The notes beneath the pieces are model-generated. The model was not told where the DNA came from. It saw only the letters and a program-made list of their open reading frames with translations, and searched no databases. DNA of 64,000 bases, from positions 1 through 64,000 of IMG/VR virus record IMGVR_UViG_3300038549_000009; one strand, written 5' to 3'. This document shows, piece by piece, positions 7,813 to 47,845 of this stretch (within the stretch, counting starts at the first letter, position 1; each line of letters starts with the position of its first letter). The translations under genes and the position numbers were made by a program. The DNA comes from a virus.

Positions 7813-8003
7813 CTGCAAAGGTCTACAAGTTCCCGCTCTGCTACCGGCGCCGGATGATCTACCAGCCGGCGCGCCTGCGCTGGTATTGCAAGACGTGCGG
7901 CAAGCTCATGCCGCATCGGGAGGAATTCACTCCGCCGCCCCCGGCGTTTTCGGACGCGCAATATAGCGCGACGATCGCCATGACGGACACTCCGATCTGG
8001 TAG
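7809..8003 (+). CDS. small hypothetical protein with a CxxC motif
   Basis: This is a 64-residue protein whose ATG overlaps the preceding stop (ATGA). It is basic at the N-terminus and has one CKTCGKLMPH motif that could be half of a zinc site. Its stop codon overlaps the 3' end of the opposite-strand tRNA by a few bases. It is the last plus-strand gene before the convergence point. Confidence 0.55.
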   Translation: MTAKVYKFPLCYRRRMIYQPARLRWYCKTCGKLMPHREEFTPPPPAFSDAQYSATIAMTDTPIW

Positions 8004-8072
8004 CGGGGGCAGGGATCGAACCTGCGACCGTCGGCGTATGAAGCCGCTGCTCTGCCTCTGAGCTACCCCGCG
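7998..8072 (-). tRNA. tRNA with CAU anticodon (Ile2 or Met)
   Basis: On the minus strand a 75-nt cloverleaf is readable: D arm GCTC/GAGC, anticodon stem GCGGC/GCCGA with loop TTCATAC (anticodon CAT), T arm GCAGG-TTCGATC-CCTGC, acceptor pairing from 2-71 to 7-66, discriminator A73 and an encoded CCA. The C11-G24 pair is of elongator type. Positions 1 and 72 are C and U and do not pair, and 27-43 is G-A. A CAU anticodon serves either methionine or, after lysidine modification, the AUA isoleucine codon; the sequence does not decide. It lies just beyond the last late gene and could be processed from the late transcript. Confidence 0.85.
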
Positions 8073-9031: not shown

Positions 9032-9178
9032 CTAGTAGCCGGGGCGCCGCTTGCGCGGCTTGCGCGGCTTCGCGCCGCGAGCGGGATGATGGGGGTAGGG
9101 CATGGCGCGCTTCAGTGCTGGCGCGGCGTGTCCCGCAGTGCGCGGCGGGATGTCGCTATACTGGTTGAACGTGGCCAC
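9032..9178 (-). CDS. 48-residue basic protein resembling the capsid N-terminus
   Basis: The gene starts with GTG at 9178 directly after the upstream stop and ends with TAG. Its first 18 residues, VATFNQYSDIPPRTAGHA, closely match the start of the major capsid protein, MATYNEYGDITPRTAAHA, encoded 24 kb away. The rest is unrelated and strongly basic (KPRKPRKRRP). The tail motif GAKPRKP is shared with the neighbouring 55-residue protein. It may be a capsid-related accessory peptide or a relic of gene duplication. The GTG start is supported mainly by the similarity, since the RBS (GGGG) is weak. Confidence 0.55.
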   Translation of the reverse strand: MATFNQYSDIPPRTAGHAAPALKRAMPYPHHPARGAKPRKPRKRRPGY

Positions 9179-9179
9179 A

Positions 9180-9347
9180 TCAGTGCCCCATCGGCTTGCG
9201 GGGCTTCGCGCCGTAGGCACGACCGCCGTGTTTGCGGTAGGTGCTGAGCGCGATTGCAATGGCCTGATCTTGCGGCTTGCCAGCGTGCATCTCTTTCGAG
9301 ATGTTCGCGCCGATGTCCTTTTTCTTTCCTGATTTGATAAGCGGCAT
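9180..9347 (-). CDS. small conserved basic phage protein
   Basis: This is a 55-residue protein with RBS GAGGGGAT before ATG at 9347. The sequence MPLIKSGKKKDIGANISKE followed by GKPQDQAIAIALS is a widespread small phage protein pattern (MPL..S.S......N...EM..GKP.KQA.AIA). Its function is unknown in the families where it occurs. It ends in GAKPRKPMGH, like its downstream neighbour. Confidence 0.75.
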   Translation of the reverse strand: MPLIKSGKKKDIGANISKEMHAGKPQDQAIAIALSTYRKHGGRAYGAKPRKPMGH

Positions 9348-15304: not shown

Positions 15305-18300
15305 CTAGGTTGGCCCCAGTAGCTCGTCTCGGGCGCCCGAGCGCAGCGCGCGCGGGAGCAGGAGCAGCGTGCGCTGGTTGAGCGGGAGCCCGGCGAGCGC
15401 GATGGAGCGGCGGATGCTGCGGGCGTCGAGCATGAGCGGCGTGTCGGGGTATTGCTCGTTCCAGCCCTGCGCGGCGGCGAATGCGTCCTTCACGTCCTGA
15501 TCCTTTCCGTCGCGGATGCCGCGCACGATGTTGTCGTATATCTGCTGCCGGACCTGATTGTAGAACGCCACGTCCTGCTTCACGATCCGGTCGTGCGCGT
15601 ATATCTCCGCCATCGCGGCGCTCGAGAACCCGAGCGACTGCCAGAACGACTCCATGTGGCCCACGTCAGTGATCTTCCGGCCGGCCGGATCGGTGGCGAC
15701 TCCGGTCGTCCAGTAGTTGTAACCCTTGACCATGTTGCGCGCCGCAACCGGCAGCGCCTCGTTGGCCGCGCGGTTGTATTCGCCCTGCGTGAGGCTCCGC
15801 CCGCCCTTCAGCGCACCCTCGACCATCGCGCCCACCGGGCCTAGCACGTCAGACAGCACGCGATCATAGGTCGCATCCGCCGCGCCAAGCCGGGTGCCGG
15901 GGATGATGTCGCCGAGGCCCACGCGGGAGGAGAACTGCATCCCTGTTAGGGTGTTGACCGCGCCAGTCATGAGGAGCCCGGACAGGTCTGATCCCACAAC
16001 AGACTCGCTCGCATCCTTCAGCGCGTTGCGCATCGCGCGGCGCGTGTTGAACGGGCTGCCAAAGAGCCGCTGCGAGATCACGTCGATGATGTCGAGTATA
16101 TTCGACATGAACGGCAGGCCCTCGGTGCCGGCGGCCAGCCACAGGCTCAGCAGCGCGAAGCTCGCCGCACGCGGGCTCTGCTTGTAGAGGCCCGTAATCA
16201 TCTCGACCATGTAAATCGGGAAGCTCTTGAACACGAACAGGAGCGAGCCCAAATCAGAGTGGGCGAGACCGGGGCGGTTCGCCTCGTCGTAGCGGAACTG
16301 GGTTTTGTAAACCACGTCCTTCGCAAACTCATAGACCGTTGGCGTCGGGAGCTTGCCTGCCTTCGCGAGTTCTTGCCCCGTCTTATAGGCCGCGATGAAC
16401 GTGGCGAGCCGGTTGAGGTGCTCGCCGGCACGGAAGGGCGCCATCCAGACCTTGATCGCGTTCTGCACGCGCTTGGACCGCGAGTAGATGCTGCCGCGTG
16501 CCATGCCCATGATCTGAAATAGCTCCGTGTCGAGAATCGTCCCGTCGCGAGCGGCCATGATAAGCGCGTCGCGCAGCCCCGGCACGGAGTCGACATCAGG
16601 GATCGAGTTACCCTGCTTATCCTCCAGCTTCGGTAGCGAGGTGAGAGTATTGTAATTCGATGCCGCAGTTTTCAACCCGCCGAACGTGCGCGCGTAGGCT
16701 TGTCCGATCCCTGCATACTGTGACAGGTAGGGCACCGTGCCGAGCGGTAGCTGCGAGAGCTGCACGCCCATCGCGGCGAACGATCCGCCGAGGAAGTGGA
16801 GCGAGGCGAGCGAGCGGAGCTTCGAGGACCAGTTCGACTTGTCGTGCGCGGGGTTCATGACATAGCTCACGCGCTGCTCCGCGAGGCTGCGGTAGTGCCC
16901 GGCCAGCGGTCCATCGCCGTTCCACTCGTTGCGCGCCCGATCGGTCTCGAACGTCGGGCGCCCGTTGGCGTCCTGCCCCACGCGAACCTTGTAGCCCTGT
17001 AGCGCGTCTGCCAGCGCGGCACTGAATTCGGTGTGCGCCACCTTGTTCGAGATGCCGACCGCGAACTCCGCCAGAATGCGCTCGCCGTCGGTGCTGAAGC
17101 CCGGCACGTTTAAACGACGGAAGATGCGGTTCCGGCGGGTCGAGTCGGCCTCGATGGTGAACTTGGCCAGCCGCTCTTTCTCGGTCTGCGTGAGCTTGAT
17201 CCCGAGCCGATTTGCCGTGTCAAGGAAGTCGAGATAGCTGATCCCGCCGTCGTATTCCACCTTGTCCCGCGTGTTCCACTCGAAGGTGATCTCGGGGAAC
17301 TTCGGTCCGACCGCCTTCTGCAAATGGTCGAGTGCGTCCTGCGCCTGCTTCTGCGTCTGGAACTGCGTGTAGAACACTGTCACCGGGCCCTGCTCGGTCT
17401 TGATGTAGCCGTGCGTCACGAAGTCCCCGTAACGCCGCTCGGGGATGTATCCCGTGCGCACCAGCTCCTCGATCTGCGCGCGCCGGGTCGCCTCCCACGT
17501 TTTGTAGGCGGCGGAGTCGGCGCCGAGCGCCTGCCGGTAGACGGTCTGATCGGCGGTGAATTCCTCGCGCAGCATCTTGTTGACCATCTCACCGGCCTGA
17601 TCGAACATGCGCCGCTGGCGCTCAGTCAGCAGCGCGCGGAGCCGGTTATACTCCGGCGTCCCGACGGCGTGGTTCCCGACGGTGCGCTGCATGAGCGCGT
17701 TGCTGACGGCATCGCGGTCTGCTGTGGTCGTCGTCAGCGGCAGCCACTCGCTCAAGTTCTTCTCGACCGAGTCCGCGATCAGGCGCTTTTTGCGATCGCT
17801 GTGCGCGAACAACACGTTCGACACGTTCGCCACGCCCTTGCTGCGCTCCGAAATCTTGAGGAGCGACATCAGGTTCTTCTCCACCCAGCGCATCGTCGAT
17901 CCGGTGGACGAATCGCCGGCGTGCTTGAATATCTGATCCCACGTCTGCTTCGGGGCGCCTGCTTCATCCACGGCGGCGCTCACGCGATGGAGCATCTGCG
18001 TGTGCTGCGCGCTGCCCTTCGTGTATTGGTCGTCCATGTTCTCGAGCGCGGCCTTCGAGTAATACAGCTCGAAGCCATCGGAGTCCAGCATCGTCATTCC
18101 GTCCTGCGGCAGCGGCAACGTGGCATCGAGCGCGGCGCGCGAGAACATCGTGCCTTGGTTCTGTGTCACGCGCAGGTCGTCGATCGCGTTCTTGAAGTTG
18201 TAACCCGCCTTGCGGAAATTCTCGGGGCCGACCGGGGCCTTCAGCGCGATGTCGATCCAGTTGCGCACGAACGCCTGCTCGCGGTCGGGGCGCAGCTCGA

Positions 18301-21300
18301 GCCTCGACTTCCCGCGCGAGACTACCTCGCCGAACAGGTCGATCGTTTCCTTGTCCTTGTTCACGACGCGGCGGAAGTAGCCCCGCTCGAGCCCCATCTT
18401 TTTCGCTTCCTTGCGGGTCGCGTCCATGCGCGCCTTGATCGCCACCCACACGGCGGCCTGCACCTGATGGATCGGCCAGCCGAGCCGGTTCGCGAGCATC
18501 CGCGTCTCGCCCTCGACGAACGAGTATTGCGTCTGCGAAATCTTCCCGTCCTTGTCGCCGTAGCCGAAGGCGTGCGCCATCCACATATCAATCGTCCCGC
18601 CCTGCGTGTGCGCGCCGTAGTTGAGCTTGTCGATCTCGATCATGAGGTTGACGAACAGGTTGTTCCGCTTCCGCCCGCCGACGATCTCGCCTTTCTTGTT
18701 CATCCGGTCGAGCCCAGTCATCACCATCGAGGCGCTGCGCGACATTTCCTCCGGGAATACTCCGGCCCTGATCGGCTGCCCTTCCTTGAACTGGTGCCAC
18801 GCGGTCCACGCGTGCTTGAAGTTGAGCGGCACCGTCGTGCGCGGCGAGAAGATGGACAGGAGCTTGGCGAACTTCGTCGCCTCCGCCTGATTGCCGCCGA
18901 ACAGATCGAGGATCGCGCGGCTGGACTCGTCGTGCCAATAGCGCCCGTAGGGTTCGCCTTCCAACGCAAGCGACGAGACGCGCCTGCGCAAGCTGCGTAG
19001 GTCTGTGCCCGACTTCAGCCAGTCGGGGCCGCCCGGATACGTCACGCTCGACGCGCTCAGTAGGTCCTCGGTGCCGGCCTTGTTCACCGTGTCGATGCCG
19101 CTCTTGGCGTAGTAGCCGGCGTCGATCGCGGTGAAGATGTCCTCGTAGGTCTGGAAGCCTTGACCGTTGAAGTAGTTGATGACCTTCGTGAGGATGGCCC
19201 TGATCTTCTGCCACACGCGCTCGATCGGCCCGGTCGCGGTGAGGTGCCCGTTCCGCCAGAACTGGAACGCGTAGGCGTGAGCCTCCCGCTGGCTGCCGGA
19301 CGCTTCCTCTGCGAGGTTCGTGCCGTTCTCCGCGTCGTAGCGCTTCAGCACCTCGATCAGCTTGTTGAACTGCTCCGAGCCCGGCTGGAACGCGCGATTG
19401 ATGACAATCTGCTCCGAGCCAGAGAGCGCGTTCAGCTCGAGATAGTGGAAGCCCTCGTGCGCGGCGGCAGACAGAATATCCTGCGCGTTGTAAGCGAGCC
19501 CGATGACGTTCTTGCCACCGGTCGCGAGCGCCTGTCCGAAGTAGCCAGCGGCGCCGTCCATGACTTGCAGCCGGACCTCGAGATTCCCCGGCGTGCCGAG
19601 GATCGTGTTGAGGTAGGCGAGCGCCGCCTTCCCGCGCGCGGTGTAGAGCGCCTGCACCATCTGGTGCGCGTCGCGACTAACTTGGTTCGGCTCTCGCAAG
19701 ATGGCATCGCGCATCATCACCGGCAGGAGGTCCGCCTTCTGCGGGGCGAACTTGCGCTCCGGCCGGGCGAGCCCTTCGTTCTGCTTGCCGAAGAAGAACC
19801 ACGCGTTGAACCCGGTCGTCTCGGTCAGGAGCGCGGCCTTCGCCTTATCGGAGAACATCTGCGCGTGCGCGCGAGCCGCATTGATCTCCCCGCTCGCGCC
19901 GAACTCGAAGCCAGTGCGAGCGTGCCCGAACAGATCGTGGATCGCGCGGAACTTGATGATCGTTTCCTTCGGAATGAACGGGTGGTCCGTGAACTGATTG
20001 AACACGGCCAGATGCCGATTCTCGAACACGTCGCGGCGCATCGCGGCCGAGTCGGGATAGTGTGTCGGGTTGTCCGTCTCCTCGATCGTGACCAGCGTCT
20101 TCGCGACCTCATACTGTGCGTTGATCTCGCGCACGTATGCCTCGTAAGCGGTGCTCACTTCGGGATTGGTGCTGCGCGCCTCCAGCAGATCGTAGGCTTC
20201 GGCGAGCGCGCGGCCCAGCGTGGGATCGAACTTGATGTAGGGGATCACCGCGATCGGCGGCAGCCCCACGCTGCGGTTGTATTCCTGCGCGGCGTCGAAG
20301 ATCGGGTGCGAGACCGGTATCTCGAGCCCAGTCCGCAGGTCCGTGATCGCGATCTGCCCAGTGGCGCGCGCAAGCTGGAGCGCCTGCACCAGAGTGTGCA
20401 CCACGGTGCCCACGCTCAACACCGACTCGCCATCGTTGCGGTCGAACCAAGTGTGCAGCACGTTAGAAGGGTTCGAGAGCGAGGTTCCGTTCAGCGCCAC
20501 GAATGACTTGATATCCTCCGGCGAGACGATGCCGTCCTTCAAGTCCCGGCGCGGGATCAGCGGGAGCCCGACAACGTAGCCAGTCGTGCCGCGCAGGTCT
20601 TGCCCGGTGACGAGGTTTGTCGTCGACCACTTCGTCGCCTTATGTGCGTCGAGCGCGGCGGCCGAATTCTGCTGCAACGTCTCCGTGGTGGGCGCCGGTG
20701 CCACGCGGGTCCGGACGAATATCCGGAGCTGCCCCCTCGGATACAATACCGCCTCGTAACCGTCGGCCACGAGTCCCTTCTGGAAAAACGCAGCCGCGAT
20801 GCTGATATCCGGGCCGTAGCGATACTTGATCTCCTCCATCGCCTTGAGAAAGCGCGGGTCCGTGAGGAGATACGAAACCCTGTAGACTTTCGACGCGTCG
20901 AGCGTGCCGACATACTTCTGCCCCGCCTGAACCTCCGGCTCGCGGTAGTCTGTGCCTTCCACGACGGCGGAAGTGTAGAAGCTACCGAACTCGGTGTTCA
21001 CCGCTTGGTCGCGGCCCTTGACGCCACGGCCCATCATCTTCGGGTCGAGTTCAGACAATCCGGGCCTACCCCAGTGATTGAACGTGATGGTGTGACTCGG
21101 GGTGAGCGCGTCCTTCGAGAACAGCATCCGGTTCGGCCCGAGCTGCCGCTTGATCGCATCAGCCAGTTCGGGGACGAAACGCTTGTCTGCCAGCAGCTCC
21201 CGACGCTGATCCTCCGGCAAACGCTTCACATACGCGAGCGCGGCGTTGCGCGCTTCCGCGCTCGTGACCGGCTGGCCCGATGAAGTCAACTGCTCGAGGA

Positions 21301-23110
21301 CTGCGTCGATCGCTGCCGTGCGCGGACTCACCCGCGCAGACAGGAGCGACACATCACGCGGGTCTGATGCGATGGTGTTTACCACGTCGCTGACCGTGGA
21401 CGCGATGTAGTCGAGGACCGTCTGCTGATCGACCTGCGGCATTGTCCCCTTGAGGGCCGCCGCTGCCTCCTGCGTCAACAACTGCTGGTTGATGGCGGTG
21501 TCAGCATTGGGCATTTGAGAACGCGCAACCGCTTCCCGCATGATCGTCTTCAGCCGACCGGACAGCGCCTTGCCGCGTCCGGTGCGCGCCAGATTCGGGT
21601 TCGACAGGACGAGCGCTTCGACGTGCTTGTCGGCCTCGGCAACCTTCTCGTTGCGAATGTCCTCTATTGTGATCGGCGTGATCGGCTTCACGCGCTCGCG
21701 CGGCGCTTCGGTCACCACCTCCAGCGGGCGCGGCTGGAGCGCGGGCGCGGCTTTCGCCTGTTCGGTCGTCAACAGCAGGCCGGCCTTGCGCCGGATCGCG
21801 GCTATCTCGCCGAAGTTCTCGTTCCGGATCGCCGTTAGGATGTCGGCCTCCGGGATGTTCGCGCGTGCCAGCGCCTCGAACTCGTAGGGCGAGAAGACCG
21901 GCACGGCCGGGTTCTGCGGGATGACGCGCCCTTCGGCATCCAACTCGACGGGGGCCGCATACGTCCGGGCCTTGGCCACCGGGGGGACCCCCTCCCCGAT
22001 CCTGCGCTCGGGCGCGGGCGGGGGAGCGGGCGGAAGCGGGGCCCGTCCATAAATTGACAGGAACGTCCCCTCCTGCACTGGTTCCTCCTCGGGCCTGACG
22101 GTATAGGCGCCGGGCTTTCCCGGAAACGCCACGGGAGGCAGCGTGGGGCGCTCCGTGAGGGGCTGGAAGGGCACCTCGACGCCGGGGGCAGCCTCCGGGC
22201 CTCCGGGAGGTGCCGGGGGCGCTGGCGGGGCTGCTGGAGGCGCCGGCTGGGCCGGGGCTGCGGCTTGAGCCGGTGCCTCCGGGGCCGTGCGCGGCCGGAA
22301 GGCGGCGGCACCACCCAGCGCGCCGAAGGTCGGGATCGCGCCGAGGGTAGTTGTAATCATGGTGTCCCGGAGCTGCTTCGTCTCCGGGATGTTGCCGGTA
22401 GCGAACATGCCCTTCACGGCGTCTTGCGCGGACTCCGTGGCGCCTTCAACCAGCGGGGAACCGATCAGCGCAGCCGCCAGCCGGAACGGCAGCGGCCCGA
22501 CTTTCTTGCCGAGCAGTAACGCGGCCGGGATCAGCAGGGAGGCGAAGTCAAGCGCGCCCGAGATTGCGCCGCCGGCGATCGCCCGCGATTCGGCGTTCGT
22601 CGCGCCGGCCTCTCGGGCCATCTGATACGTCTCACCGATCTCGTTCGTGAAGCTCGTAGCCGCCGCGCCGCCTACCATGCCGGGGAGGAACCGGCCCCCG
22701 ACGAGCTTCGAGGCCGTGCCGAGAATCGTGCCGGTGCCGAGAGACGCGGCCAAGCTGGCAAGCAGGTTGCCGGAGCTGTAGCCGGTGATGTCGATGAATT
22801 TCTTGGGGTCTTGTAGCGCCTCGTCGACCGAGAACGGCTGCGGGAACTGGCGCTGTTCGACCTCAGCCTTCTCCCGCACACCGGCGCCGAAGCCGCCGAG
22901 AGCCGGAGCGCCCGCCCGTGCTGCGGCCAGTTCGAGCGCGCTACCGGCGGCAGCAGTCAAGCCAGTGCGGCCTGCGCCGAAGCCAGATGCGATTACGCCG
23001 GGTTGTGGGGCCGGACCGGGGCTGAGCACGAAACCGGGCGGCGCGTAGACCGACTCGGTATCAGTTGTTGGCTCGCCAGCTTCGGGCGGGACCAGAAGTT
23101 CATCTGCCAT
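15305..23110 (-). CDS. giant polyvalent internal virion protein, 2601 residues
   Basis: The ATG overlaps the upstream stop. The first 450 residues hold Gly/Ala-rich membrane-like segments and a Pro-rich region. Around residues 660-805 an ADP-ribosyltransferase-like or large-polyvalent domain is suggested by HWGRPGLSELDPKMMGRGVKG. Residues near 1060 carry FRAIHDLFGHA, and a zincin-like HEGFH motif lies near 1218. A conserved helical module with FSPRT follows near 1422, and a long alpha-helical C-terminal region ends the protein. Such proteins are packaged and injected with the DNA and carry several enzymatic domains. No virion RNA polymerase motifs were found. Confidence 0.8.
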   Translation of the reverse strand: MADELLVPPEAGEPTTDTESVYAPPGFVLSPGPAPQPGVIASGFGAGRTGLTAAAGSALELAAARAGAPALGGFGAGVREKAEVEQRQFPQPFSVDEALQDPKKFIDITGYSSGNLLASLAASLGTGTILGTASKLVGGRFLPGMVGGAAATSFTNEIGETYQMAREAGATNAESRAIAGGAISGALDFASLLIPAALLLGKKVGPLPFRLAAALIGSPLVEGATESAQDAVKGMFATGNIPETKQLRDTMITTTLGAIPTFGALGGAAAFRPRTAPEAPAQAAAPAQPAPPAAPPAPPAPPGGPEAAPGVEVPFQPLTERPTLPPVAFPGKPGAYTVRPEEEPVQEGTFLSIYGRAPLPPAPPPAPERRIGEGVPPVAKARTYAAPVELDAEGRVIPQNPAVPVFSPYEFEALARANIPEADILTAIRNENFGEIAAIRRKAGLLLTTEQAKAAPALQPRPLEVVTEAPRERVKPITPITIEDIRNEKVAEADKHVEALVLSNPNLARTGRGKALSGRLKTIMREAVARSQMPNADTAINQQLLTQEAAAALKGTMPQVDQQTVLDYIASTVSDVVNTIASDPRDVSLLSARVSPRTAAIDAVLEQLTSSGQPVTSAEARNAALAYVKRLPEDQRRELLADKRFVPELADAIKRQLGPNRMLFSKDALTPSHTITFNHWGRPGLSELDPKMMGRGVKGRDQAVNTEFGSFYTSAVVEGTDYREPEVQAGQKYVGTLDASKVYRVSYLLTDPRFLKAMEEIKYRYGPDISIAAAFFQKGLVADGYEAVLYPRGQLRIFVRTRVAPAPTTETLQQNSAAALDAHKATKWSTTNLVTGQDLRGTTGYVVGLPLIPRRDLKDGIVSPEDIKSFVALNGTSLSNPSNVLHTWFDRNDGESVLSVGTVVHTLVQALQLARATGQIAITDLRTGLEIPVSHPIFDAAQEYNRSVGLPPIAVIPYIKFDPTLGRALAEAYDLLEARSTNPEVSTAYEAYVREINAQYEVAKTLVTIEETDNPTHYPDSAAMRRDVFENRHLAVFNQFTDHPFIPKETIIKFRAIHDLFGHARTGFEFGASGEINAARAHAQMFSDKAKAALLTETTGFNAWFFFGKQNEGLARPERKFAPQKADLLPVMMRDAILREPNQVSRDAHQMVQALYTARGKAALAYLNTILGTPGNLEVRLQVMDGAAGYFGQALATGGKNVIGLAYNAQDILSAAAHEGFHYLELNALSGSEQIVINRAFQPGSEQFNKLIEVLKRYDAENGTNLAEEASGSQREAHAYAFQFWRNGHLTATGPIERVWQKIRAILTKVINYFNGQGFQTYEDIFTAIDAGYYAKSGIDTVNKAGTEDLLSASSVTYPGGPDWLKSGTDLRSLRRRVSSLALEGEPYGRYWHDESSRAILDLFGGNQAEATKFAKLLSIFSPRTTVPLNFKHAWTAWHQFKEGQPIRAGVFPEEMSRSASMVMTGLDRMNKKGEIVGGRKRNNLFVNLMIEIDKLNYGAHTQGGTIDMWMAHAFGYGDKDGKISQTQYSFVEGETRMLANRLGWPIHQVQAAVWVAIKARMDATRKEAKKMGLERGYFRRVVNKDKETIDLFGEVVSRGKSRLELRPDREQAFVRNWIDIALKAPVGPENFRKAGYNFKNAIDDLRVTQNQGTMFSRAALDATLPLPQDGMTMLDSDGFELYYSKAALENMDDQYTKGSAQHTQMLHRVSAAVDEAGAPKQTWDQIFKHAGDSSTGSTMRWVEKNLMSLLKISERSKGVANVSNVLFAHSDRKKRLIADSVEKNLSEWLPLTTTTADRDAVSNALMQRTVGNHAVGTPEYNRLRALLTERQRRMFDQAGEMVNKMLREEFTADQTVYRQALGADSAAYKTWEATRRAQIEELVRTGYIPERRYGDFVTHGYIKTEQGPVTVFYTQFQTQKQAQDALDHLQKAVGPKFPEITFEWNTRDKVEYDGGISYLDFLDTANRLGIKLTQTEKERLAKFTIEADSTRRNRIFRRLNVPGFSTDGERILAEFAVGISNKVAHTEFSAALADALQGYKVRVGQDANGRPTFETDRARNEWNGDGPLAGHYRSLAEQRVSYVMNPAHDKSNWSSKLRSLASLHFLGGSFAAMGVQLSQLPLGTVPYLSQYAGIGQAYARTFGGLKTAASNYNTLTSLPKLEDKQGNSIPDVDSVPGLRDALIMAARDGTILDTELFQIMGMARGSIYSRSKRVQNAIKVWMAPFRAGEHLNRLATFIAAYKTGQELAKAGKLPTPTVYEFAKDVVYKTQFRYDEANRPGLAHSDLGSLLFVFKSFPIYMVEMITGLYKQSPRAASFALLSLWLAAGTEGLPFMSNILDIIDVISQRLFGSPFNTRRAMRNALKDASESVVGSDLSGLLMTGAVNTLTGMQFSSRVGLGDIIPGTRLGAADATYDRVLSDVLGPVGAMVEGALKGGRSLTQGEYNRAANEALPVAARNMVKGYNYWTTGVATDPAGRKITDVGHMESFWQSLGFSSAAMAEIYAHDRIVKQDVAFYNQVRQQIYDNIVRGIRDGKDQDVKDAFAAAQGWNEQYPDTPLMLDARSIRRSIALAGLPLNQRTLLLLPRALRSGARDELLGPT

Positions 23111-32547: not shown

Positions 32548-33534
32548 TTAGTTCGTCGCTGCGACTTCCAGCCGGACCATGAACGCGTCGTTCAGGATCA
32601 CGGCGTTTTGCATGACCTTCCAGCCCGCCGTCCCGCGCTGGGCGAGCGGGTCGCCTGCAACGGGCTTCGGGTTGACGATCATGATCGTCGCGGCAGACTT
32701 GCCCTTCAGCGGAACGATGCCGTAGGCGTCCTTTGCGAGGATCAGCACCGGATACACGTCGGCGAGGCCGCCGCCGGAGGTCACCATCGCGCCCGCTGCG
32801 CCACCGGCGCTGGCAAAGGCGGTGAAGATGGTGGACCGGAGGTAGCGCACGTCTTCGACGGAGCCGATCTCATTCGCCCACGGAGTCGTGGTCCCGTATT
32901 GCTTGGTCGGGATGAAACCCGGAATGTTCCGGATATCGTTTTCCACGTCGACGTGACAGATCGCGATGTAGGCTGCCTCGACCGGCTCGGTCCGGAAGTC
33001 CGGGGTGGACTTGACCACGCTGGTGAAAGGCGACGCGTTCTGGCGCTTGAGCGCGCGGGTGCCCTTGCGCTGGAGCGCGAGGGTGATCGGGGTGTTGACA
33101 TCGGAGCGCATGGTGCCGTTGGCGTAGAACACGTTCGTGCCCGCCTTGATGACGTTCCAGCGCACGGTCTCGAGCGTTTGCGCGGCTTGTTCGCCGAGCA
33201 GACCCGAGGTTTCCATGAGGTAGGGGTCCTCGTGGGTGTCCAGAATCACGTCGGTGAACTCGACGTAATCGCCGAACTGCTCAAGGGTGACCGGCACGTC
33301 GGTGACGGTGACCTTTTTGCCCGTGGGCGTGACGCCTTCGACGAGCGGCGTGGTGGCGAGAGCCAGCGCGTTGTAACGCCGGAAGATCGCGACCTTCGTG
33401 CTCTTGGTCGGCAGTTGGTAGACCTGCCCAAACTTCTCGATCACGAGATGGGGCAGACCGCGCCGGAGCAACTTCGTGACTGCGTGCGCGGCGGTGCGGG
33501 GCGTGATGTCCCCGTATTCGTTGTAGGTGGCCAT
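32548..33534 (-). CDS. major capsid protein (N4-gp56-like)
   Basis: This is a 328-residue protein with the start MATYNEYGDITPRTAAHA, then LVIEKFGQVYQLP, RRYNALALATTPLVEGVTP and DVILDTHEDPYL, a pattern characteristic of the N4-gp56 family of HK97-fold capsid proteins. The RBS AAAGAGGAACC is upstream. It follows the scaffold-like gene as expected. Its N-terminal peptide is echoed by the 48-residue protein at 9032-9178. Confidence 0.9.
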   Translation of the reverse strand: MATYNEYGDITPRTAAHAVTKLLRRGLPHLVIEKFGQVYQLPTKSTKVAIFRRYNALALATTPLVEGVTPTGKKVTVTDVPVTLEQFGDYVEFTDVILDTHEDPYLMETSGLLGEQAAQTLETVRWNVIKAGTNVFYANGTMRSDVNTPITLALQRKGTRALKRQNASPFTSVVKSTPDFRTEPVEAAYIAICHVDVENDIRNIPGFIPTKQYGTTTPWANEIGSVEDVRYLRSTIFTAFASAGGAAGAMVTSGGGLADVYPVLILAKDAYGIVPLKGKSAATIMIVNPKPVAGDPLAQRGTAGWKVMQNAVILNDAFMVRLEVAATN

Positions 33535-33774: not shown

Positions 33775-34833
33775 TCAATCATCGTTTGCGAGGGCTTCCG
33801 CAAAGCCGCTGTCGAAGTCGTTGGGGTCCTTGGAACCAGAGGGTGAGACTTTCGTCGCCTTGGTCCTGACGGGCTCCAGCGCTGCAACACGACTTGGGTC
33901 GGCTGCCGGTTCAGCGGGCTTGCCAGTCGGCTTGCCTGCTGCTGGTGCTGTCCCGCCCTGCGACTCTGGCGATGGCGAGGAACTTCCTGTTGCGCTCTTG
34001 TAGCGACCGACTAGGTCGATCACATCTTGAGCTGAGCCTGTATCATACGCCTGTTTCAGCGCAGGCTGCAAGTAGGCGGGTTGAGTGTCGATCCATGCCG
34101 GAACTTTCTCGATGACGACATCGTAGTCCGGAATGGCCCCACGCAACGTGGCCATGTGCGAATTATACGAGACTTCGTAGTCCCGTTCAAGTAGCGGATT
34201 GACCTGCTGGTTGACGTGCCCGAGGACGTTAGCCAGCGCGGTTATCAGCTTGTTCTGCGCCTCGTGGTTGACGCGGCGCTGGTAATAATCGAGCACCTTG
34301 GCGACCTCGGGATAGTTCTCTTTGACGGCCGCCAAGATCGTCTTGTCCTCCTCCGTCTCGACGAACTCGGGGAGCTTGAACTCCTCGGGCGCGGGAGCCG
34401 CCGGCTCGGCCGCAGGCGCCGGGGCAGCGGCAGCGGGCGCAGCGGCAGCGGGCGCCGGGGCAGCGGCAGCGGGCGCAGCGGGCGCAGCGGGCGCAGCGGG
34501 CGCAGCGGGCGCAGCGGCAGCGGGTGCCGGGGCAGCCGCAGGCGCAGCAGCCGGGGCAGCCGCAGGAGCGGGCGCAGCGGCGGCAGCGGCGGCAGCATCC
34601 GAAGCCGCAGCATCATCCGCCGCATCCTTGTCAGCGGCGGCAGCGGGTGTAACCGGCGCGGGAGCGGGCGCGGGCTTTTGGTCACCCTTCTCGTCCTCGA
34701 CATCCAGCCCGGCGAGCGCCTTCGTCCACTCGTCGTCGAACTCAGCCTCCGGAGTTACCGGAGCAGCGGGTGCCGCAGCCGGAGCCGCAGCGGGTGCCGG
34801 CGCAGCAGCCGGCGTGGTGATCTCGGTCGTCAT
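33775..34833 (-). CDS. putative scaffolding protein with Ala/Pro-rich tract
   Basis: This 352-residue protein lies between portal and capsid. A long Ala/Pro tract (about residues 60-150) comes from short DNA repeats related to GGCGCAGCG. Helical, charged C-terminal regions follow (EETKLPEFVETEEDKTILAAVKENYP-type segments, then YDTGSAQDVIDLVGRYK). N- and C-termini are acidic, and the portal-scaffold-capsid order matches many phages. Scaffold is therefore inferred from position, acidity and helix content. Confidence 0.65.
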   Translation of the reverse strand: MTTEITTPAAAPAPAAAPAAAPAAPVTPEAEFDDEWTKALAGLDVEDEKGDQKPAPAPAPVTPAAAADKDAADDAAASDAAAAAAAAPAPAAAPAAAPAAAPAPAAAAPAAPAAPAAPAAPAAAAPAPAAAAPAAAAPAPAAEPAAPAPEEFKLPEFVETEEDKTILAAVKENYPEVAKVLDYYQRRVNHEAQNKLITALANVLGHVNQQVNPLLERDYEVSYNSHMATLRGAIPDYDVVIEKVPAWIDTQPAYLQPALKQAYDTGSAQDVIDLVGRYKSATGSSSPSPESQGGTAPAAGKPTGKPAEPAADPSRVAALEPVRTKATKVSPSGSKDPNDFDSGFAEALANDD

Positions 34834-47368: not shown

Positions 47369-47845
47369 ATGAAGCGAATCATGCCTTACGTGTTTTCCCT
47401 CGTGCTCCTGTTTGCGGCCGGACTGGCGCAAGCTGGCGGCGGCGCGGGTTTCTATCAGCACTTCAACGGCACCATCAAATTTTTCCCGCAAGGGAATAAC
47501 GGGCAAGCGTGGACGTTCTTGGGCGAGTCCGGTGGCGGTGGCGGTGGCGGTGGCGGTGGCGGTGGCGGTGGCGGTGGCGGTGGCGGTGGCGGTGGCGGAA
47601 GCAAAGCCTCCGGCGGCAGCCAAGGCAACGGCAGCCATGCCAGCAAGGGCACGCGGATACTGCGCGCGGCTATCAAGGGCGCGATTGCAGCCGTGGCGAT
47701 TTACGTGGTCTACTGCATCGTCACCGAGGACACGAGCGTCCCCGAGGACCAGCGGACTTGCAAGCGCCAGCCCGAGCCGGAGCCGATTGCTCTACAGCCC
47801 GTGCTGAACACCACGAACGTGTTCTCGCGCGACTGGAGTAAGTAA
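47369..47845 (+). CDS. secreted/membrane protein with a 23-glycine tract
   Basis: This is a 158-residue protein with a signal peptide (residues about 1-22, SLVLLFAAGLAQA), a short domain, then a run of 23 glycines (residues about 55-77) encoded by eleven GGTGGC units plus GGA. A second hydrophobic segment (AAIKGAIAAVAIYVVYCIV) near residues 98-116 may span the membrane. The Gly run is a flexible linker that could change length by replication slippage without a frameshift. Function unknown. Confidence 0.65.
   Translation: MKRIMPYVFSLVLLFAAGLAQAGGGAGFYQHFNGTIKFFPQGNNGQAWTFLGESGGGGGGGGGGGGGGGGGGGGGGGSKASGGSQGNGSHASKGTRILRAAIKGAIAAVAIYVVYCIVTEDTSVPEDQRTCKRQPEPEPIALQPVLNTTNVFSRDWSK
47531..47596 (+). 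repeat. (GGTGGC)11 hexanucleotide microsatellite
   Basis: Eleven perfect tandem GGTGGC units, 66 bp, within the preceding gene. Gain or loss of whole units keeps the frame and changes the glycine linker by two residues per unit. Confidence 0.85.

Follow-up and report, generated by a model that had tools for sequence, protein, structure and literature searches.

The window, i.e. the whole stretch of DNA analysed, comprises 64,000 of the 64,258 bases of the virus record, which is probably complete, as its last bases repeat the window start. The late genes occupy about 39.5 to 8.2 kb and are read leftwards: terminase and portal come first, then the scaffold-position protein, the major capsid protein (MCP) and the tail genes, and small genes lie at the distal end. 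There an ORF of 48 codons (9178-9032) is found, encoding VATFNQYSDIPPRTAGHAAPALKRAMPYPHHPARGAKPRKPRKRRPGY. Its product consists of two parts: an N-terminal segment resembling the N-arm of the capsid protein and a basic tail (Table 1). The gene lies 24.4 kb from the capsid gene on the same strand, in agreement with the initial annotation, which had placed it in the late operon at a distance of 24 kb.

The TGA codon of the upstream gene and the GTG of the 48-aa ORF are 1 nt apart, and an out-of-frame ATG overlaps this upstream stop (TGATG). At the other end, the TAG codon sits within the ribosome-binding region of the next gene. The GC content by codon position (0.69/0.61/0.84) follows a pattern like that of the neighbouring genes. 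With this coding pattern and the tight operon packing, the ORF fits a translated gene. The whole protein contains 11 K/R and only 1 D/E residues (pI 11.65), which bears out the basic tail described earlier. A tRNA-Met (CAT) gene (7998-8072) is located at the end of the late operon, near the 48-aa gene. In the relative G002, a stretch similar to this tRNA gene (77% over 75 nt) is observed in reverse orientation at 63.4 kb, near the record end, in what appears to be an array of tRNA genes.

Table 1. Features of the 48-aa gene, its neighbours and the head genes compared with it.
Feature	Position	Strand	Remarks
Next operon gene, 288 aa	8156..9022	-	Stop of the 48-aa gene falls in its ribosome-binding region
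48-aa ORF, GTG start, TAG stop (48 codons)	9032..9178	-	Homology to MCP begins at the GTG
Basic tail, PHHPARGAKPRKPRKRRPGY	9035..9094	-	MCP residues 29-328 unmatched in any frame
Direct repeat of 22 nt encoding GAKPRKP, 48-aa gene copy	9056..9077	-	Differs from the other copy at 1 of 22 nt; both in the same frame
N-arm-like segment, residues 1-28, VATFNQYSDIPPRTAGHAAPALKRAMPY	9095..9178	-	12/18 aa identical to own MCP; 9/10 strongly conserved MCP positions kept
55-aa gene, PHROG_2423 (annotated as unknown function), probable tail donor	9180..9347	-	E 2.1e-14
Direct repeat of 22 nt encoding GAKPRKP, copy in the 55-aa gene tail	9192..9213	-	Repeat comparison
MCP gene, N4 gp56-like HK97 fold	32548..33534	-	PHROG_1357 E 1.7e-57; Foldseek to N4 capsid E 5.5e-18
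Capsid N-arm codons 1-29 (predicted), counterpart of the copied segment	33448..33534	-	AF2 model
Probable scaffolding protein, candidate N-arm partner	33775..34833	-	Located upstream of the MCP gene; motifs compared

Relation of the 48-aa protein to the capsid N-terminus

The claim that the 48-residue protein repeats the start of the MCP is confirmed: VATFNQYSDIPPRTAGHA against MATYNEYGDITPRTAAHA gives 12 identical residues in 18, and in the first 18 codons of the two genes 39 of 54 nucleotides are identical. The ungapped BLOSUM62 score of residues 2-18 against the MCP is 69, while the best other start codon scores 18 (2,789 start codons of ORFs with at least 30 codons in the window) and the best other six-frame position 27 (127,900 positions in the window). 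Judged by these scores, the two N-termini are homologous and do not resemble each other by chance. The homology starts at the GTG codon, with none observed upstream of it, and is longer than first noted, since it reaches residue 28 with one gap when aligned with 67 MCPs. The gap corresponds to the deletion of one residue (LKRAMPY in the 48-aa protein, LLRRGLPH in the own MCP). The LKRAMPY sequence is typical of the MCP family and is exactly present in the MCPs of several other phages.

The N-arm motif of the N4 gp56-like MCPs, YGDI(S/T)PRTA...L.R..P, is present in the 48-aa protein except for Gly8. Residues 1-28 are homologous to the N-arm of this family (Schitoviridae-type HK97 fold); unlike its members, the 48-aa protein is devoid of the HK97-fold core (E-loop, P- and A-domains), has a proline interrupting the helix, and carries a fused basic tail. 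The ORF ends after 48 codons, and no similarity to MCP residues 29-328 is found in any frame downstream, on which ground a longer capsid pseudogene is rejected. For MCP segments from residue 21 on, no second six-frame match above 40 is observed in the whole window.

The residues retained in the copy are mainly those which the family retains. Nine of the 10 strongly conserved positions (at least 90% of the 67 MCPs) are kept, versus 6 of the 17 variable ones (Fisher p 0.007, a value leaning slightly towards this result, with the gap placement taken from a prior alignment). Between the copy and the own MCP the pS value is 0.69 and pN is 0.14, i.e. the amino acids are kept and the synonymous sites differ. 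By this measure the two have diverged under protein constraint, and the low pN/pS may have accrued between capsid genes before the capture, not in the copy. In respect to the departures from the family, the invariant Gly8 is replaced by Ser, position 11 is Pro (seen in none of the 67 MCPs), and the helical part contains Pro20 together with the deletion at MCP position 19. These changes would disturb the helix or its approach, and so weaken strict mimicry.

The capsid N-arm and its candidate partner

The MCP was modeled with AlphaFold2 from 67 sequences at a pLDDT of 86.5 (the model from 13 sequences, with pLDDT 30, was unusable), and Foldseek groups the model with the capsids of phages N4, Moo19, B2, and DEV. 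Residues 1-11 are predicted to be mostly extended and residues 12-29 to form a helix, which together make the N-arm. According to this model, the copied piece coincides with one structural element of the capsid, namely the N-arm (residues 1-29). The N-arm of the N4 capsid protein extends to the quasi-2-fold of neighbouring subunits (PMC11768535). In P22, the C-terminus of the scaffold docks by charge on the N-arm helix of the coat protein (PMC9965877), and contact with an N-arm helix is described for the scaffolds of 80alpha, SaPI1, P22, and phi29 (PMC12749128).

The scaffold-position protein shows an acidic-aromatic motif at both ends: FDDEWTKALAG (34708-34740) and FDSGFAEALANDD (33778-33816). 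A motif of the F(D/A)xA(F/W)xEA type (also FDxAFxEA) is C-terminal in 48 of 58 relatives (L009, L013, L014, L134, and L154 among them) and present at both ends in 36 of 58, as counted with a simple regular expression and without a shuffled control. The doubled motif may be a doubled coat-binding element, and the acidic-aromatic ends are a plausible partner for the basic N-arm. A scaffold motif of the F[DA]xx[FW] type is absent from all 48 residues of the small protein, in which the capsid side of the interface is present instead.

Origin of the gene and its distribution

The capsid-like segment sits between the two copies of the 22-nt direct repeat, one in the tail of the 48-aa gene and the other in the tail of the adjacent 55-aa gene. 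From this in-frame repeat flanking the capsid-like piece, we infer that a capsid fragment was captured inside a duplicated tail. The tails of PHROG_2423 proteins are variable and basic; that of the 48-aa protein is likewise basic and has the repeat in common with the tail of its neighbour. The 48-aa protein itself shows no PHROG match, and the PHROG_2423 core (MPL..K..QAIAIA) is absent.

As for the capsid-like part, codons 7-18 and 23-29 of the copy agree with the own capsid gene in 39 of 57 nt, and with the capsid genes of other phages in up to 45 of 57. Residues 2-6 and His17 resemble the MCP clade of this virus, while residues 22-28 resemble other MCPs better than the own one. Of the ancestral duplication considered in the initial annotation, the descent from a capsid gene is retained, while the donor may be the own gene or that of another phage, as the DNA is no closer to the former. 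A recent duplication from the own capsid gene is rejected by the 39/54 nt identity over 18 codons, with near-saturated synonymous sites.

Homologues of the gene were sought in the relatives and none was found. The closest contig, L001, has a capsid 96% identical and covers the equivalent of about 13.8-40.7 kb of the window, ending before the gene region. No homologue of the 48-aa protein is observed in IMG/VR by exact 8-mers, in the prokaryote genomes searched, or by tblastn on named phages (one match with E 2, taken as chance), where distant homologues could be missed by exact 8-residue words or short-query tblastn. The degenerate pattern YxDIPPRTA occurs in six stretches of IMG/VR, none of which is an N-arm copy at the start of a gene. 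In all 40 related IMG/VR records (14 of them above 50 kb) the N-arm is matched once and only once, within an ORF as long as that of an MCP; of two named phages, Rollin has one match and StenR_269 none at the sensitivity used. In the 42 related records searched whole, there is at most one N-arm each and a homologue of the 48-aa protein in none; the near-complete relatives G002 and G017 are also devoid of the gene. PHROG_2423 is present in 11 of 39 related records, and no N-arm copy follows the PHROG_2423 gene in the five records where this gene was located. Three neighbouring genes used as bait for close relatives yielded one distant contig only, with no 48-aa ORF in it. A literature search for truncated capsid copies found no paper with the terms used.

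Possible role of the 48-aa protein

We tentatively favor the description of the 48-aa gene as a late-operon orphan of composite origin, with a product that would act as an N-arm-derived modulator of head assembly. The homology, the limits of the two modules and the in-frame repeat are established. The first 28 codons derive from the 5' end of an N4-type capsid gene, where the N-arm is encoded, and the tail probably from that of the neighbouring PHROG_2423 gene, which is basic as well. The N-arm segment would bind what the capsid N-arm binds, i.e. the procapsid scaffolding protein or a docking site on the neighbouring capsid subunit, while the basic tail would hold DNA or the acidic scaffold, and the protein would thereby modulate head assembly or be carried into the head. 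The initial annotation had suggested that the copied peptide competes for a capsid contact or recruits a partner. As the copied piece corresponds to the N-arm unit, competition for the N-arm contact, or recruitment through it, is plausible; on the other hand, no relative has so far been found to carry the gene, and the lack of a homologue in any collection searched counts against the assembly-modulator reading. That the separate small protein is a self-encoded N-arm mimic, occupying scaffold or capsid sites and tuning head assembly, and born by fragment capture in the tail of a neighbour, is a possibility to be held with some reserve.

Nearly as likely as the assembly modulator, and likewise doubtful, is a captured fragment of a capsid gene which is translated by chance and has no function related to the capsid, its resemblance being inherited and decaying. 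The lack of homologues in the collections, as well as in G002 and G017, is consistent with such a fragment, and so are the substitutions of Gly8 and position 11, the deletion, the proline in the helix, and the direct repeat on both sides of the fragment, as left by illegitimate recombination. This is opposed by the selective retention of the conserved capsid positions and by the open, tightly packed frame of coding composition; in addition, useless genes are seldom kept in phage late operons.

A targeting tag, by which the N-arm segment would bring a small basic DNA-binding protein into the prohead much as the T4 capsid targeting sequence does with internal proteins, is an unlikely function, albeit one that suits a short capsid-derived N-terminus leading into a strongly basic tail (pI 11.65). 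In the part of PMC3012670 used here, a conserved targeting sequence is found on diverse internal proteins of T4, with lysines contacting DNA, so a short N-terminal segment could similarly direct the small basic protein; the T4 tag is not described there as a copy of the capsid protein, and no sequence relation between the two is claimed. Furthermore, the T4 tag is common to several proteins, whereas the N-terminus of the 48-aa protein is single, with no second protein sharing it in the window. It is quite improbable that the product is one more small PHROG_2423-type protein, important for its basic tail and with an N-terminal part of no consequence: the genes are adjacent, the repeat is in frame with the PHROG_2423 tail, and variable basic C-terminal tails are the rule in this family, but its conserved core is missing. 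A chance similarity or a non-coding frame, suggested by the shortness of the ORF and the ATG at the upstream stop, is very improbable in view of the score of 69 versus 27 for the next best of the 127,900 positions, with the match in register at both starts.

For the assembly-modulator reading, CpmB of SaPI1 is the mirror-image precedent. CpmB shares the capsid-binding RIIK motif of the scaffold with the 80alpha scaffolding protein and competes through this motif (PMC5644958). Both CpmB and the 48-aa protein are small and have a short motif of an assembly interface in common with a phage head protein; competition is described for CpmB only. CpmB is encoded by a satellite and carries the scaffold motif, whereas here the own N-arm of the capsid is copied and the gene belongs to the late operon of the phage. 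The N-arm is believed to have a part in setting capsid size and scaffold release, and a phage-encoded free N-arm peptide would be a natural tool for testing this. The 48-aa gene would moreover illustrate clearly how part of a structural gene can give rise to a new small gene.

A protein of 2601 aa encoded in the late operon (15305-23110) shows one weak family match only (DUF7178) and may be an ejected internal protein. The gene at 47369-47845 contains more than 20 consecutive glycine codons, which arise from a short tandem repeat (47500-47620).
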